DNA from: Streptomyces spinosus
Lineage (GTDB): Bacteria; Actinomycetota; Actinomycetes; Streptomycetales; Streptomycetaceae
Direction of reading: 5' to 3'
Length of the DNA: 64,000 nt
Assembly: GCF_020400655.1 (NCBI RefSeq)
Contig: NZ_JAINRC010000020.1
Span: 62,001-126,000, forward strand
The notes below the pieces were generated by a model, which was not told the origin of the DNA, did not search any database, and worked only from the letters and a program-made list of their open reading frames with translations. Shown in pieces: positions 27,961 through 48,753 of the stretch. A program made the translations under genes and the position numbers. Within the stretch, counting starts at the first letter, position 1. The number at the start of each line of letters is the position of its first letter.

Positions 27961-29595
27961 TCAGGCCCACGTGGCCTGGAGCAGGTTGAGGCCCGGGTAC
28001 GGCTGGGCCCTTATCCCGCTGAGTTGACGCGGGTCCCAGGCGGTCATCAGCTCGTTGTGGACGACCGGGTAGAGCACCGCCTGCTCGGCGACGACGTCGA
28101 CGTAGTCCTGGATCATCGCCTTCTTCCTCGCGGGATCCGGCTCCCGGGTCGCCCGGTCCATGTCCCTGAAGAGCCGCCGGGCGACGGGGTGGCCTTCCCA
28201 CCGCGTGTACCGCATCCACAGGTTCCCGGGCCCGTAGTTGTAGTGCATGATCAGGTCGGCGTCGCGCCCGAACTGGTTGGGGTTGGAGGCCGCCGCGACC
28301 ACCTGGTAGTCCTGCTTCTGGTCCATCTTGGTGAAGACGGCCGTGGTCTCCTGCGGCGCCAGGGTGGTCCGCACTCCGATCGCGTCCCAGGAGGACTTGA
28401 CGGTCGGCAGACAGTCCACGATCCAGCTGACGTTGACGGCGAGGATCTCGACGCTGAGGTCGGTGACCCCGGCGGCCTTCAGCAGGGCCCTGGCCCTGTC
28501 CGGGTCGTGGTCGTAGACGGTCTTCGCCCGGCGGTAGCCGGGATTTCCCTCGTTGAGGAACGAGGACGCGGGCCTGCCGTGGCCCTTCAGCGCGACCCGC
28601 ACCATCTTCTCGGTGTCGATGGCGTAGTGCAGCGCCTGGCGGACGCGGACGTCGTCGAAGGGCTTGTGCCGGGTGTTGAACATCAGGAAGAGGTTGTTCA
28701 TCCCGGCGCCGCCGGCCACCTTCAGCCCGCCCTGCTCCAGCCGGGGGATGTTGGCGTAGGGGATGTTGTCGGCGATCTGCGCGCCGGCGCCGGTCCCGGA
28801 GATCTTCGCGACGCGGGGTGCCGCGTCCACGATGGTCAGCCAGTTCATCCTGTGGAAGGCGGGCCTGCGGGGTCCGTTGTAGGCGGCGAACGCCTCGAAG
28901 GTGGTGTTCGACTTGGGGTGGTGCGCGGTCTGCCGGTACGGCCCCGAGCCCACCGCCAGCCCCTTGACCGCGTCGTCCCAGGCGCCGGGCCGGGAGAAGA
29001 CGTGCCGGGGCATGACCTTGGCGAGGGTGAGGCGGGCCAGACCGTCCGGGAAGGGGAACTTGAGGACGAGCTCGATCGTCCGGGCGTCGGTCTTCCGCAC
29101 GGAGTCCAGCCAGGGGGCGAAGAAACCCTTGGCGAGCGTCTGGGTGTGCGGATCGAGGATCCGGTCGAAGACGAACACGACGTCGTCGGCGGTGACGGGC
29201 GTGCCGTCGTGGAAGGTGGCGCCGGGGCGCAGCGAGAAACGCCAGGTGGTGGCGGACGGGTCGCGGGGGATCGCGGTGGCCAGCGCCGGATACGGCTCCC
29301 GGGTGATCGGGTCCGTGTCCAGCAGCCCCTCGTAGATGTGGTTGTTGGCGGCCATCGCGAACGCCGACGCGGTCTGCGTGGGGTCCCAGCTGCCGTCGTT
29401 GCCGTACCCGATCACGGCGGTCAGCGTGCGGTCCTTGCCGCCACCGCCCCCGGTGTCGTTCGTCGACTCCGGACCGGCGGAACAGGCGGCCAGCGCGGGG
29501 GTCAGGGCGGCGGCGGCGCCGAGCGCGCCGGAGTACTTCAGGAACTGCCGGCGAAGCGGTGCCGGTGCGCCGGGGTTCACGTCGTCGTCGCGCAC
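27961..29595 (-). CDS. ABC transporter substrate-binding lipoprotein (SBP family 5)
   Basis: A 544-residue extracellular solute-binding protein of the peptide/nickel family, the first gene of the operon. The N-terminus has RRQFLKYSGALGAAAALTP and the lipobox LAAC, so it is a lipoprotein, possibly Tat-exported because of the twin arginine. YEGLL, DDVVF and the C-terminal YVDVVAEQAVLYPVV blocks are typical of family 5. GTG 29595 has GGAGG upstream. Ligand is unknown; the neighbouring aldolase and sialidase point to a sialylated oligosaccharide or sugar acid as well as peptides. Confidence 0.92.
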   Translation of the reverse strand: MRDDDVNPGAPAPLRRQFLKYSGALGAAAALTPALAACSAGPESTNDTGGGGGKDRTLTAVIGYGNDGSWDPTQTASAFAMAANNHIYEGLLDTDPITREPYPALATAIPRDPSATTWRFSLRPGATFHDGTPVTADDVVFVFDRILDPHTQTLAKGFFAPWLDSVRKTDARTIELVLKFPFPDGLARLTLAKVMPRHVFSRPGAWDDAVKGLAVGSGPYRQTAHHPKSNTTFEAFAAYNGPRRPAFHRMNWLTIVDAAPRVAKISGTGAGAQIADNIPYANIPRLEQGGLKVAGGAGMNNLFLMFNTRHKPFDDVRVRQALHYAIDTEKMVRVALKGHGRPASSFLNEGNPGYRRAKTVYDHDPDRARALLKAAGVTDLSVEILAVNVSWIVDCLPTVKSSWDAIGVRTTLAPQETTAVFTKMDQKQDYQVVAAASNPNQFGRDADLIMHYNYGPGNLWMRYTRWEGHPVARRLFRDMDRATREPDPARKKAMIQDYVDVVAEQAVLYPVVHNELMTAWDPRQLSGIRAQPYPGLNLLQATWA

Positions 29596-29642
29596 GGGTC
29601 CTCCAGCGGGTGGGTGGGGGAGGGGTGAGAGCGGGGGTGATA

Positions 29643-29664
29643 CGACGTCCTACGTCCTACGTCC
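29643..29664 (-). repeat. Three tandem GGACGTA repeats in the ABC operon leader
   Basis: On the minus strand the start of the transcript reads GGACGTA-GGACGTA-GGACGTC, three 7-bp direct repeats just downstream of the promoter. This could be a regulator binding site. Confidence 0.5.
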
Positions 29665-29677
29665 GGCCGGTAGCGCG

Positions 29678-29706
29678 ACCATAGGAGCGCCCCCGGGACC
29701 GGTCAA
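29678..29706 (-). promoter_or_regulatory. Promoter of the ABC-aldolase operon
   Basis: On the minus strand TTGACC (29706-29701) is separated by exactly 17 bp from TATGGT (29683-29678), a good housekeeping sigma-type promoter. It lies about 83 nt before the SBP start. Confidence 0.65.
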
Positions 29707-30023
29707 GACGGCGCACACGAATGGGGCATCCGCCAGAGGCCGCCCCCATGGGCGGGCGGCGAGACGGGATGGACACCGGACCCCGCCCGGACGAGGGCCG
29801 CGCGGCTGCTGAGCGCCGGCGGGCGTCTCGCAGGTGCCCGGGCCCTAGCCGGCGTCGCGTCCCGGACGGCCGGGGGGCGAGGGCCCCGGTCGGTCGCATG
29901 CGGCGGGGCGCCGGTGGCCTTCCCGCCGGATCGTCGTCCGTGTTCGCGCCCGTCCTGGTTACCCGGCGGGGAGCCGGCGATCCCGCGCGTCCTGCCGGCC
30001 CGCGCCGCCGGCCGAGCGACCGC

Positions 30024-30068
30024 GCACCGACGCACGCGGCTCGCCTCCGGCCGCCAGGGGGCAGCAGG
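30024..30068. repeat. Mosaic repeat unit B, copy 1
   Basis: Begins GCACCGACGCACGCGGCTCG. Further copies start at 30209 and 30301 with a few substitutions, so unit spacings are 185 and 92 nt. Confidence 0.8.
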
Positions 30069-30090
30069 CCGGCGCCGCCGGCGGCCCCCC

Positions 30091-30208
30091 GTGCCGGGCG
30101 CCGGGTCCGGCCGAGCTGTCCGGCGGAGTCCGGGCGGCCCCGTTCACCCCGGCCGTGCCGGTCCCGCGCACCGCCGGCTCGGCCGCACCCGCGCCGGTTC
30201 CGGCCTCC
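30091..30208. repeat. Mosaic repeat unit A, copy 1 (118 bp)
   Basis: Begins GTGCCGGGCGCCGGGTCCGG. It is repeated at 30360-30477 with a single difference (GGCTCG versus GGCCCG). The near identity points to recent duplication or gene conversion. Confidence 0.85.
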
Positions 30209-30253
30209 GCACCGACGCACGCGGCTCGTGTCCGGCGGCCAGCGGGCAGCAGG
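30209..30253. repeat. Mosaic repeat unit B, copy 2
   Basis: Same start as the copy at 30024, with CGTGTCCGGCGG in place of CGCCTCCGGCCG. Together with the preceding 34 nt it forms a 92-nt tandem unit with copy 3. Confidence 0.8.
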
Positions 30254-30300
30254 CCGGCGCCGCCGCCGGCTCGGCCGCATCCGCGCCGGTTCCGGCCTCC

Positions 30301-30345
30301 GCACCGACGCACGCGGCTCGCCTCCGGCCGCCAGCGGGCAGCACG
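30301..30345. repeat. Mosaic repeat unit B, copy 3
   Basis: Third copy. It is preceded by CCGGCTCGGCCGCATCCGCG, which also occurs, with one change, before copy 2 and again inside unit A copy 2. Confidence 0.8.
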
Positions 30346-30359
30346 CCGGCGGCCCGCCC

Positions 30360-30477
30360 GTGCCGGGCGCCGGGTCCGGCCGAGCTGTCCGGCGGAGTCC
30401 GGGCGGCCCCGTTCACCCCGGCCGTGCCGGTCCCGCGCACCGCCGGCCCGGCCGCACCCGCGCCGGTTCCGGCCTCC
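30360..30477. repeat. Mosaic repeat unit A, copy 2 (118 bp)
   Basis: Second copy of the 118-bp unit, 269 bp from the first. It ends 49 nt before the recO start codon, so the repeat tract probably includes or abuts the recO promoter. Confidence 0.85.
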
Positions 30478-30526
30478 CCGCCCCGCGCGCGACAGTGCCG
30501 CCCCCGGCATGGGCGAGAATGGGTCC

Positions 30527-31273
30527 ATGAGCCTGTTCCGCGACGACGGCATCGTGCTGCGCACCCAGAAGCTGGGTGAGGCGGACCGGATCATCACGCT
30601 GCTCACCCGCGGTCACGGCCGGGTGCGGGCCGTCGCCCGGGGCGTGCGGCGTACGAAGTCCAAGTTCGGCGCCCGGCTCGAACCCTTCTCCCACGTCGAC
30701 GTGCAGTTCTTCGCGCGGGGGAGCGAACTGGTCGGACGCGGACTGCCGCTGTGCACGCAGAGCGAGACCATCGCGCCCTACGGCGGCGGCATCGTCACCG
30801 ACTACGCGCGCTACACCGCCGGGACCGCCATGCTGGAGACGGCCGAGCGGTTCACGGACCACGAGGGCGAGCCGGCCGTCCAGCAGTACCTGCTGCTGGT
30901 CGGGGCCCTGCGGACGCTCGCCCGGGGCGAGCACGCGCCGCACCTCGTCCTCGACGCCTTCCTGCTGCGCTCCCTCGCCGTCAACGGCTACGCGCCCAGC
31001 TTCGGCGACTGCGCGAAGTGCGGGATGCCCGGCCCCAACCGGTTCTTCTCCGTCGCCTCCGGCGGCTCCGTCTGCGCCGACTGCCGGGTGCCCGGCAGTG
31101 TCGTACCGTCCCCGCAGACCCTCGTGCTGCTGGGGGCGCTGCTTACGGGAGACTGGGAGACGGCGGACGCGTGCGAGGCACGGTACGTCCGCGAGGGCAG
31201 CGGGCTGGTGTCCGCCTACCTGCACTGGCACCTGGAGCGCGGACTGCGCTCCCTGCGGTACGTAGAGAAGTAA
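30527..31273 (+). CDS. recO: DNA repair protein RecO
   Basis: A 248-residue recombination mediator of the RecFOR pathway that anneals DNA and helps load RecA. An N-terminal OB-fold (DDGIVLRTQKLGEADRIITLLTR) precedes a helical domain. A zinc finger follows, with CAKCGMPG (about residues 164-171) and CADC (about 185-188). Start ATG 30527 is the family start. It is followed 30 nt later by uppS, a common actinobacterial neighbour. Confidence 0.94.
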   Translation: MSLFRDDGIVLRTQKLGEADRIITLLTRGHGRVRAVARGVRRTKSKFGARLEPFSHVDVQFFARGSELVGRGLPLCTQSETIAPYGGGIVTDYARYTAGTAMLETAERFTDHEGEPAVQQYLLLVGALRTLARGEHAPHLVLDAFLLRSLAVNGYAPSFGDCAKCGMPGPNRFFSVASGGSVCADCRVPGSVVPSPQTLVLLGALLTGDWETADACEARYVREGSGLVSAYLHWHLERGLRSLRYVEK

Positions 31274-46510: not shown

Positions 46511-46527
46511 CCGGGGCTGCGCCCCGG
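46511..46527. terminator. Terminator-like hairpin between dusB and sulfatase gene
   Basis: CCGGGGC-TGC-GCCCCGG, a perfect 7-bp stem 7 nt after dusB, followed by a further CCGGGG repeat. Confidence 0.6.
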
Positions 46528-46563
46528 CCCCCGCCGGGGCTCCGCTCCCGGACCCCGGCCGCC

Positions 46564-48662: not shown

Positions 48663-48753
48663 GGGGCCTCTCGTTCGGATCGTTCCGGGCCCGCGGGCCC
48701 TGGCACCGCTCCCTGATCCGGCCTGATCCGGCCTGATCCGGACGAAAGACCCT
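48663..48753. repeat. Palindromic dispersed element, copy 2 (91 bp)
   Basis: Aligns with the element at 13983-14144: shared GCGGGCCCTGGCACC, GCTCCCTGATCCGGCCTGAT and ACGAAAGACCCT. About 80 bp of the middle are absent and the left arm is diverged (GGGGCCTCTCGTTCGGATCG). GGCCTGATCC is repeated in tandem. Its right end provides the TAA stop of the hydrolase gene beyond it. Confidence 0.75.

Follow-up and report, generated by a model that had tools for sequence, protein, structure and literature searches.

The repeat tract in front of recO in the analysed DNA (the window, a stretch of 64,000 nucleotides from Streptomyces spinosus) is very probably what remains, after decay and tandem copying, of an MFS transporter gene and the MarR regulator gene beside it, both from an island of about 20 kb that the two nearest relatives examined keep at the same site. 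A puzzling repeat beside a recombination gene would then become a record of island loss, with the two sister genomes representing the state before the loss and the window the state after it.

Structure of the repeat tract

Three units are located head to tail at 30023-30482, before recO, and their parts are ordered A-B-C / A-C / A-B-C, which fits the label "mosaic" used in the first-pass annotation. Copy 1 (30023-30207, plus strand; defined by blastn, tblastn and gapped alignment) contains all three parts and carries the bases following the MarR stop codon and an MFS relic. Copy 2 (30208-30299, plus strand; placed by the repeat register, with its spacing of 185 and 92) is without the middle part B. 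Copy 3 (30300-30482, plus strand; blastn and tblastn) is again A-B-C, and its part B gives the best single MFS match of the whole interval.

The repeats described in that annotation were recovered in full. The two 118-bp copies are at 30088-30205 and 30357-30474 with a single mismatch, at 30179; the 45-bp unit occurs three times, from 30021, 30206 and 30298, with pairwise differences of 6, 3 and 3 bases; and the 92-bp period was found both by Tandem Repeats Finder (30023-30358) and by a repeat search, as spacings of 185 and 92. The tract does come within 50 bp of recO, as it ends at 30482 and recO begins with the ATG at 30527, leaving 44 bp between them. With units of 92-185 bp and no spacers between them, the tract is not CRISPR-like either. 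The longest exact direct repeat within 30000-30480 is 91 bp, compared with 16 bp or less in 40 Markov resamplings of the same dinucleotide make-up, and the GC content is 84-89% in each 100-bp step from 30000 to 30499, compared with 72.5% for the whole window.

A search of the genus with the query 29860-31000 returned matches in 390 out of 392 genomes. Among the matches listed, those with the best scores out of the 390, no other genome matched to the left of window position 30428, and the two nearest relatives (G020 and G135) matched only from 30486 on. There was no second strain of the species of the window among the genomes searched. The suggestion that the duplication is recent is supported, as copies 1 and 3 are identical over parts B and C except for 1 base in 118 and the tract is private among the matches listed. 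Further copies, which the annotation had proposed to look for, were sought in the genome of the window (G000): none above 57 bits was found elsewhere, only weak matches of 67-93% identity over 22-200 bp, and a dispersed repeat (REP, MITE or IS-derived) was rejected on the result of this search. A recO upstream region that is prone to repeats in general was also rejected, since direct repeats with a length of 50 bp or more and an identity of 85% or more were present within 700 bp before recO at 1 of 125 loci, and in 3 of up to 250 random 700-bp pieces.

As G000 is a draft genome of 94 contigs, with the window on contig C12, the copies could in principle have been created or multiplied during assembly. 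This is barely conceivable, because every copy has its own differences, one deletion is private to copy 2 and the tract is about 92 kb into the contig. Assemblers usually collapse such repeats and do not multiply them. Moreover, the identity of the tract as a gene fossil is independent of the copy number.

Two other short tandem arrays were detected by Tandem Repeats Finder elsewhere in the window: a CCGGGGCTCCG-type unit of 23-24 bp, present twice, at 46511-46557, and three exact copies of CCTGATCCGG at 48712-48741.

An island at the same site in the nearest relatives

By recO, the closest among 128 loci were G135 (96.9%) and G020 (96.2%), and the next was at 93.5%. Both of these sister genomes have the same solute-binding-protein (SBP) operon and recO as the window, with an island between them. 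It was located by blastn synteny in G020 at C28:97085-117358 (20274 bp) and in G135 at C4:91896-112297 (20402 bp). In the window, the left neighbour of the lost island is the SBP_bac_5 gene of an ABC transporter (27961-29595, minus strand; Pfam E 2.7e-71), which is divergent from recO and whose orthologue adjoins the island in both sisters. It is followed by a left flank common to the sister genomes (29596-29743), where the blastn homology ends at 29743 with G020 or 29739 with G135. The homology resumes at 30486, and the 742 bp between (29744-30485), GC-rich and in place of the island, are referred to here as the filler. The 41 bases before the recO ATG (30486-30526, plus strand) are kept in both sisters, and recO itself occupies 30527-31273 on the plus strand (Pfam RecO_C E 1.4e-33, RecO_N E 5.2e-26).

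The Pfam matches in the island were a luciferase-like monooxygenase, AfsA, NmrA, an MmyB-type regulator, MFS, a metallo-beta-lactamase fold, HAD, a short-chain dehydrogenase, AvrD, a phosphopantetheinyl transferase, a thioesterase, Gfo/Idh/MocA and a flavin reductase, and it also encodes a MarR regulator (PF01047, E 4.5e-12). Because of this gene content the island looks like a biosynthetic cluster. With its AfsA, AvrD, phosphopantetheinyl transferase, thioesterase and efflux genes (G020:C28 and G135:C4; L149, L150, L239 and L240) it is probably a small-molecule cluster, and from the association of AvrD and AfsA genes we presume that it could be butenolide- or syringolide-like.

The MFS and MarR genes are adjacent and divergent in the island, MarR pointing left and MFS pointing right. 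The intact MFS gene is between the SBP gene and recO in both G020 (C28:106421-107863) and G135 (C4:101391-102833). In the reference copy of the island it is at L149:5422-6867 and is of the DHA2 type, with an LmrA-type model as its best NCBIfam match (E 1.4e-66, under the cut-off of that model); the minus-strand MarR gene spans about L149:4757-5176. Few genomes have this MFS gene, which has matches at E 1e-150 or better in 4 of 295 genus genomes and an identity of at least 86% only in G020, G135 and G083. It is absent from G000, where the best MFS protein is 41% identical to that of the island. For L149:1-16300, the largest part of the island tested, G000 has no comparable copy, only short matches of 66-75%.

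Probable relics of two island genes

When the filler was compared by blastn with 2.23 Mb of Streptomyces DNA, the 3' end of the island MFS gene came top, in both sisters (82% over 83 bp, E 4e-17), and the second-ranked matches were the 3' end of the island MarR gene, again in both (80-82% over 67-74 bp, E 7e-13 to 2e-12). The MFS orthologue in G083 (78%, E 7e-13) was tied with or came after the MarR matches. Unrelated loci, many of which were in the set for having matched the tract earlier, came lower: their best E was 1.7e-10 under one scoring scheme and 6.7e-8 under a stricter one. Reversing the filler to serve as a decoy gave 3.5e-7 at best. In Smith-Waterman comparisons of fixed blocks against nineteen 20-kb null segments, blocks B1C1 and B2C3 scored 55 and 56 (null maximum 30 and 32) and the MarR block 43-46 (null maximum 32). 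As a single gapped query, the whole 742-bp filler scored 62 against the island, a less clear result with a null maximum of 57; therefore, it is the local matches, not the filler as a whole, that are clearly island-derived. The left 219 bp of the filler (29744-29962) gave no match above noise, with island scores of 24-28 and a null maximum of 33, and are perhaps further decayed island DNA.

The relic of the MarR 3' end and the bases that follow it was found at 29963-30036 on the plus strand, inverted relative to the island (minus-strand matches of 82% over 67 bp in G020 and 80% over 74 bp in G135). Its stop codon position, 30013-30015, is TGA in the island and CGA in the window. The MFS relic of copy 1 covers 30040-30205 on the plus strand, corresponding to about codons 394-471, the last ~78 of the gene, with small deletions (82% over 78 bp in G020). 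Its alignment with the intact gene shows gaps of 5, 10, 19, 21 and 9 nt and one gap of 1 nt, and the same 5-, 10-, 19-, 21- and 9-nt gaps are present in copy 3.

With the MFS protein as the query, tblastn matched the coding frame in copy 1 (E 2e-9) and in the stretch from copy 2 to copy 3 (E 3e-10). In the copies containing part B, the translated tract reads ...PAELSGGVRAAPFTPAVPVPRT..., which aligns with PAELSDGLQAATFTSAVLILLT of the transporter. The tblastx comparison of the filler interval with the island gave many chance pieces sharing E-values, and its best pieces were used for the frame only. A protein search of 150 genomes with the tract's own frame gave weak, scattered matches (best E 9e-5), in which the MFS genes of G020 and G135 appeared at E 0.005 and 0.008 and did not lead. 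A DNA match in G026 (E 7e-12) was rejected as a relative, being composition noise from a low-complexity coding stretch of the Ala/Gly/Glu type.

Relative to G020, the relic shows 25 changes from A/T to G/C and 4 from G/C to A/T (16:3 in MFS copy 1 and 9:1 in MarR), a bias that fits unconstrained DNA in a GC-rich genome. The MFS relic differs from G020 at 29 of 166 sites, while in the neighbouring genes the differences at four-fold sites number 19 of 160 for recO and 10 of 154 for uppS, a comparison that is suggestive of lost constraint. There is an intact homologue at the locus, the in-frame homology is above chance, and truncation is accompanied by disabling changes: most of the MFS gene is gone, the MarR stop codon is changed and there are gaps of 5, 1, 10, 19, 21 and 9 nt. 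The region had previously been described as gene-free, which holds in that the tract has no intact gene, but the region is the remains of two genes. Pfam had no match in the three plus-strand frames of the tract and NCBIfam none in two of them; this blindness of both databases to the relic counts against the island origin.

A different MFS-MarR locus could have been the source, by a separate transfer or translocation, in place of the island that G020 and G135 have at this site. MFS efflux genes are abundant (47 matches in G000 at E 1e-20), G083 has an 86% MFS orthologue elsewhere in its genome (on C15, with recO on C22), and the 30-bp segment 30241-30270 of copy 2 is 93% identical to the G083 gene. 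The inverted orientation of the MarR part also counts for another source, and for the island it needs one extra rearrangement. We nevertheless consider this very unlikely, as both island genes match the filler and they are neighbours in the same chromosomal interval of the nearest relatives examined, whereas for the MarR relic G083 yields only a noise-level score of 21, and its MFS gene ranks under those of the sisters.

Proposed history of the tract

If the state of the sisters is taken as ancestral, the common ancestor of G020, G135 and the window would have had the island of about 20 kb between the SBP gene and recO. A single inversion, with its ends about 20 nt past the MarR stop and at about MFS codon 394, could then have placed the MarR tail before the MFS tail in one direction. 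The order of the tails predicted by such an inversion is the order present at 29963-30205. Nearly all of the rest of the island would have been deleted, on the right up to a point immediately before the bases kept next to recO, and the remnant, free of constraint, could have undergone small losses and a drift towards G and C.

A later tandem duplication would have produced the three units, the second of which is without the middle part; such duplications usually arise by slippage or by unequal exchange between repeats. The fusion of the two tails presumably preceded the tandem copying because the MarR flank belongs to unit part A, and so did the small deletions, because copies 1 and 3 have the same gaps. 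The duplication would have been followed by the mutations in which the copies differ, and by the loss of part B in copy 2.

Among eight relatives with an SBP-recO gap of less than 1.1 kb, seven had no island remains above the null maximum, and the eighth (L046) had an island score of 33, with a null maximum of 27. The result for the seven counts against the island origin.

Function of the tract

The functional suggestions made for the tract are not supported and there is no sign of function. One was that the repeats could affect the expression of recO, but the 41 bases before the ATG are common to both sisters and start just after the tract. Within these bases, 7-12 nt upstream of the recO ATG, is GGGCGAGAATGG (GAGAAT), which we take to be a putative -10-like element, and the same motif occurs before recO in other loci. 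The other suggestion was a structural role of the RNA or DNA, but Rfam gave no match up to E 1 in 29600-30600 and the folding z-scores of three strands of the repeated part were ordinary (-1.32, -0.50 and -0.23). An array of promoters or terminators was rejected, since the lone promoter-like site, at 29678-29706 on the minus strand, is outside the tract and no terminator was found. No coding, RNA-family or CRISPR role was found for the tract, and nothing on the tract was found in the open-licence PMC literature searched.

A functional array that tunes recO, such as a VNTR-type switch, a structural RNA or an array of regulator-binding sites, would be in keeping with the position of the repeats next to recO, their recent origin and the near-identity of copies 1 and 3. 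This is highly improbable, as the array is private to G000 among the matches listed, has no Rfam family, no promoter- or terminator-like site inside it and folding z-scores of -0.2 to -1.3, and the bases adjoining recO are conserved in sisters without the tract. In addition, the content of the unit is accounted for by the gene relics. The tract can serve as a caution that recent repeats in GC-rich intergenic DNA need not mean function, and as a small worked case of the GC-ward decay of dead genes in Streptomyces.

The SBP-recO interval and leader ORFs of recO in other Streptomyces

The SBP gene was in the flank covered at 29 of the 128 recO loci, in which genomes present under two locus numbers were counted twice. 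It was always divergent, and 316 to 18,326 bp from recO. At the other 99 loci, including G020 and G135 with part of the island, it was beyond the flank covered, often 3-4 kb; in G020 and G135 the distance is about 20 kb. Gene gain and loss in this interval seem to be common and repeated.

The DNA just upstream of recO was also compared between 125 recO loci with distinct sequences from other Streptomyces. In 88 of these an A(G/C)AATG motif is within 25 nt before the recO start, as in the window, and in these loci the same motif was never found upstream beyond 5 nt. In all of the other 37, the frame of an upstream ATG runs to a TGA that overlaps with the start codon of recO (ATGA or GTGA): L048, L058, L061, L065, L067, L069, L070, L075, L077, L079, L081, L084, L085, L091, L093, L105, L106, L113, L114, L115, L154, L260, L262, L264, L267, L270, L271, L273, L274, L276, L277, L278, L281, L282, L283, L285 and L287. 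The leaders are 14 to 152 nt long before recO, all 37 are in the coupling frame, and the upstream ATG is directly motif-bearing in 35 of them. The motif-bearing ATGs lie at 19 different distances, between 14 and 172 nt; 18 of these distances, and 35 of 36 sites, leave 2 modulo 3, which is the frame ending in the overlap. The sole exception, L278, is a chain, with a 44-nt leader whose stop is on the start of a second leader, of 128 nt, which in turn stops on recO.

In the long leaders the first ~68 bases of recO are copied at the front, and an inverted repeat rich in GC and GGNGCGCG-like bases stand at the end. In L264 (G175:C1:2849700-2869400, one contig) there are five near-identical 128-bp leaders in series, joined by ATGA overlaps, with the motif-bearing start at -640, ahead of all five. 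Weaker relatives of the last 68 bases of this unit occur at other places in the genome (80-88% over 43-55 bp). L131, which is outside the 125, has a 26-nt leader followed by two 125-bp leaders. On a recO tree of the 125 that excludes the first 90 bases, 23 changes are needed to explain the two states, compared with 32.1 for shuffles, and the well-supported branches force at least 4 changes of leader state.

The simplest reading, a prediction from sequence, is that recO translation in the leader loci is coupled to a short leader, and the pattern looks like selected translational coupling. From its position beside a uppS-type gene, SCO2510 is taken here to be recO. SCO2512-SCO2509 are given as a SigB-dependent operon in a table row of PMC8346170. 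No description of recO leader ORFs was found in the open-licence PMC literature searched.

It could be proposed that the tract is one outcome of a site-specific process in which DNA upstream of recO is repeatedly inserted, duplicated and trimmed, and which elsewhere led to one to five coupled leaders copied from the 5' end of recO. The window would then hold the raw material, tandem DNA at the edge of the recO promoter, before the formation of a leader, and elsewhere recO would be translated solely by coupling. The leader-ORF pattern itself is well supported, but its link to the window tract is not well supported, and we regard such a shared process as very improbable. The variable SBP-recO interval and the leader ORFs may nevertheless be of more general interest than the tract.

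Comparison with known systems

As the probable decayed remains of an MFS-MarR pair, the tract resembles the pseudogene remnants of acquired or biosynthetic islands in having decayed gene ends and small deletions, with an intact sister copy in place and no homologue left in the genome. It differs from pseudogene remnants generally in that two gene tails appear to have been fused by inversion and then tandemly triplicated. With bacterial minisatellite or VNTR-like arrays it shares a long unit, repeated head to tail with a partial copy, but there are only 2.5 units, there is no conservation in other species and the unit comes from a dead gene. The source genes of the relic are a DHA2-type MFS drug-efflux transporter and its adjacent MarR regulator; unlike such an intact pair, the window keeps only the last ~78 codons of the MFS gene and the last codons of the MarR gene.
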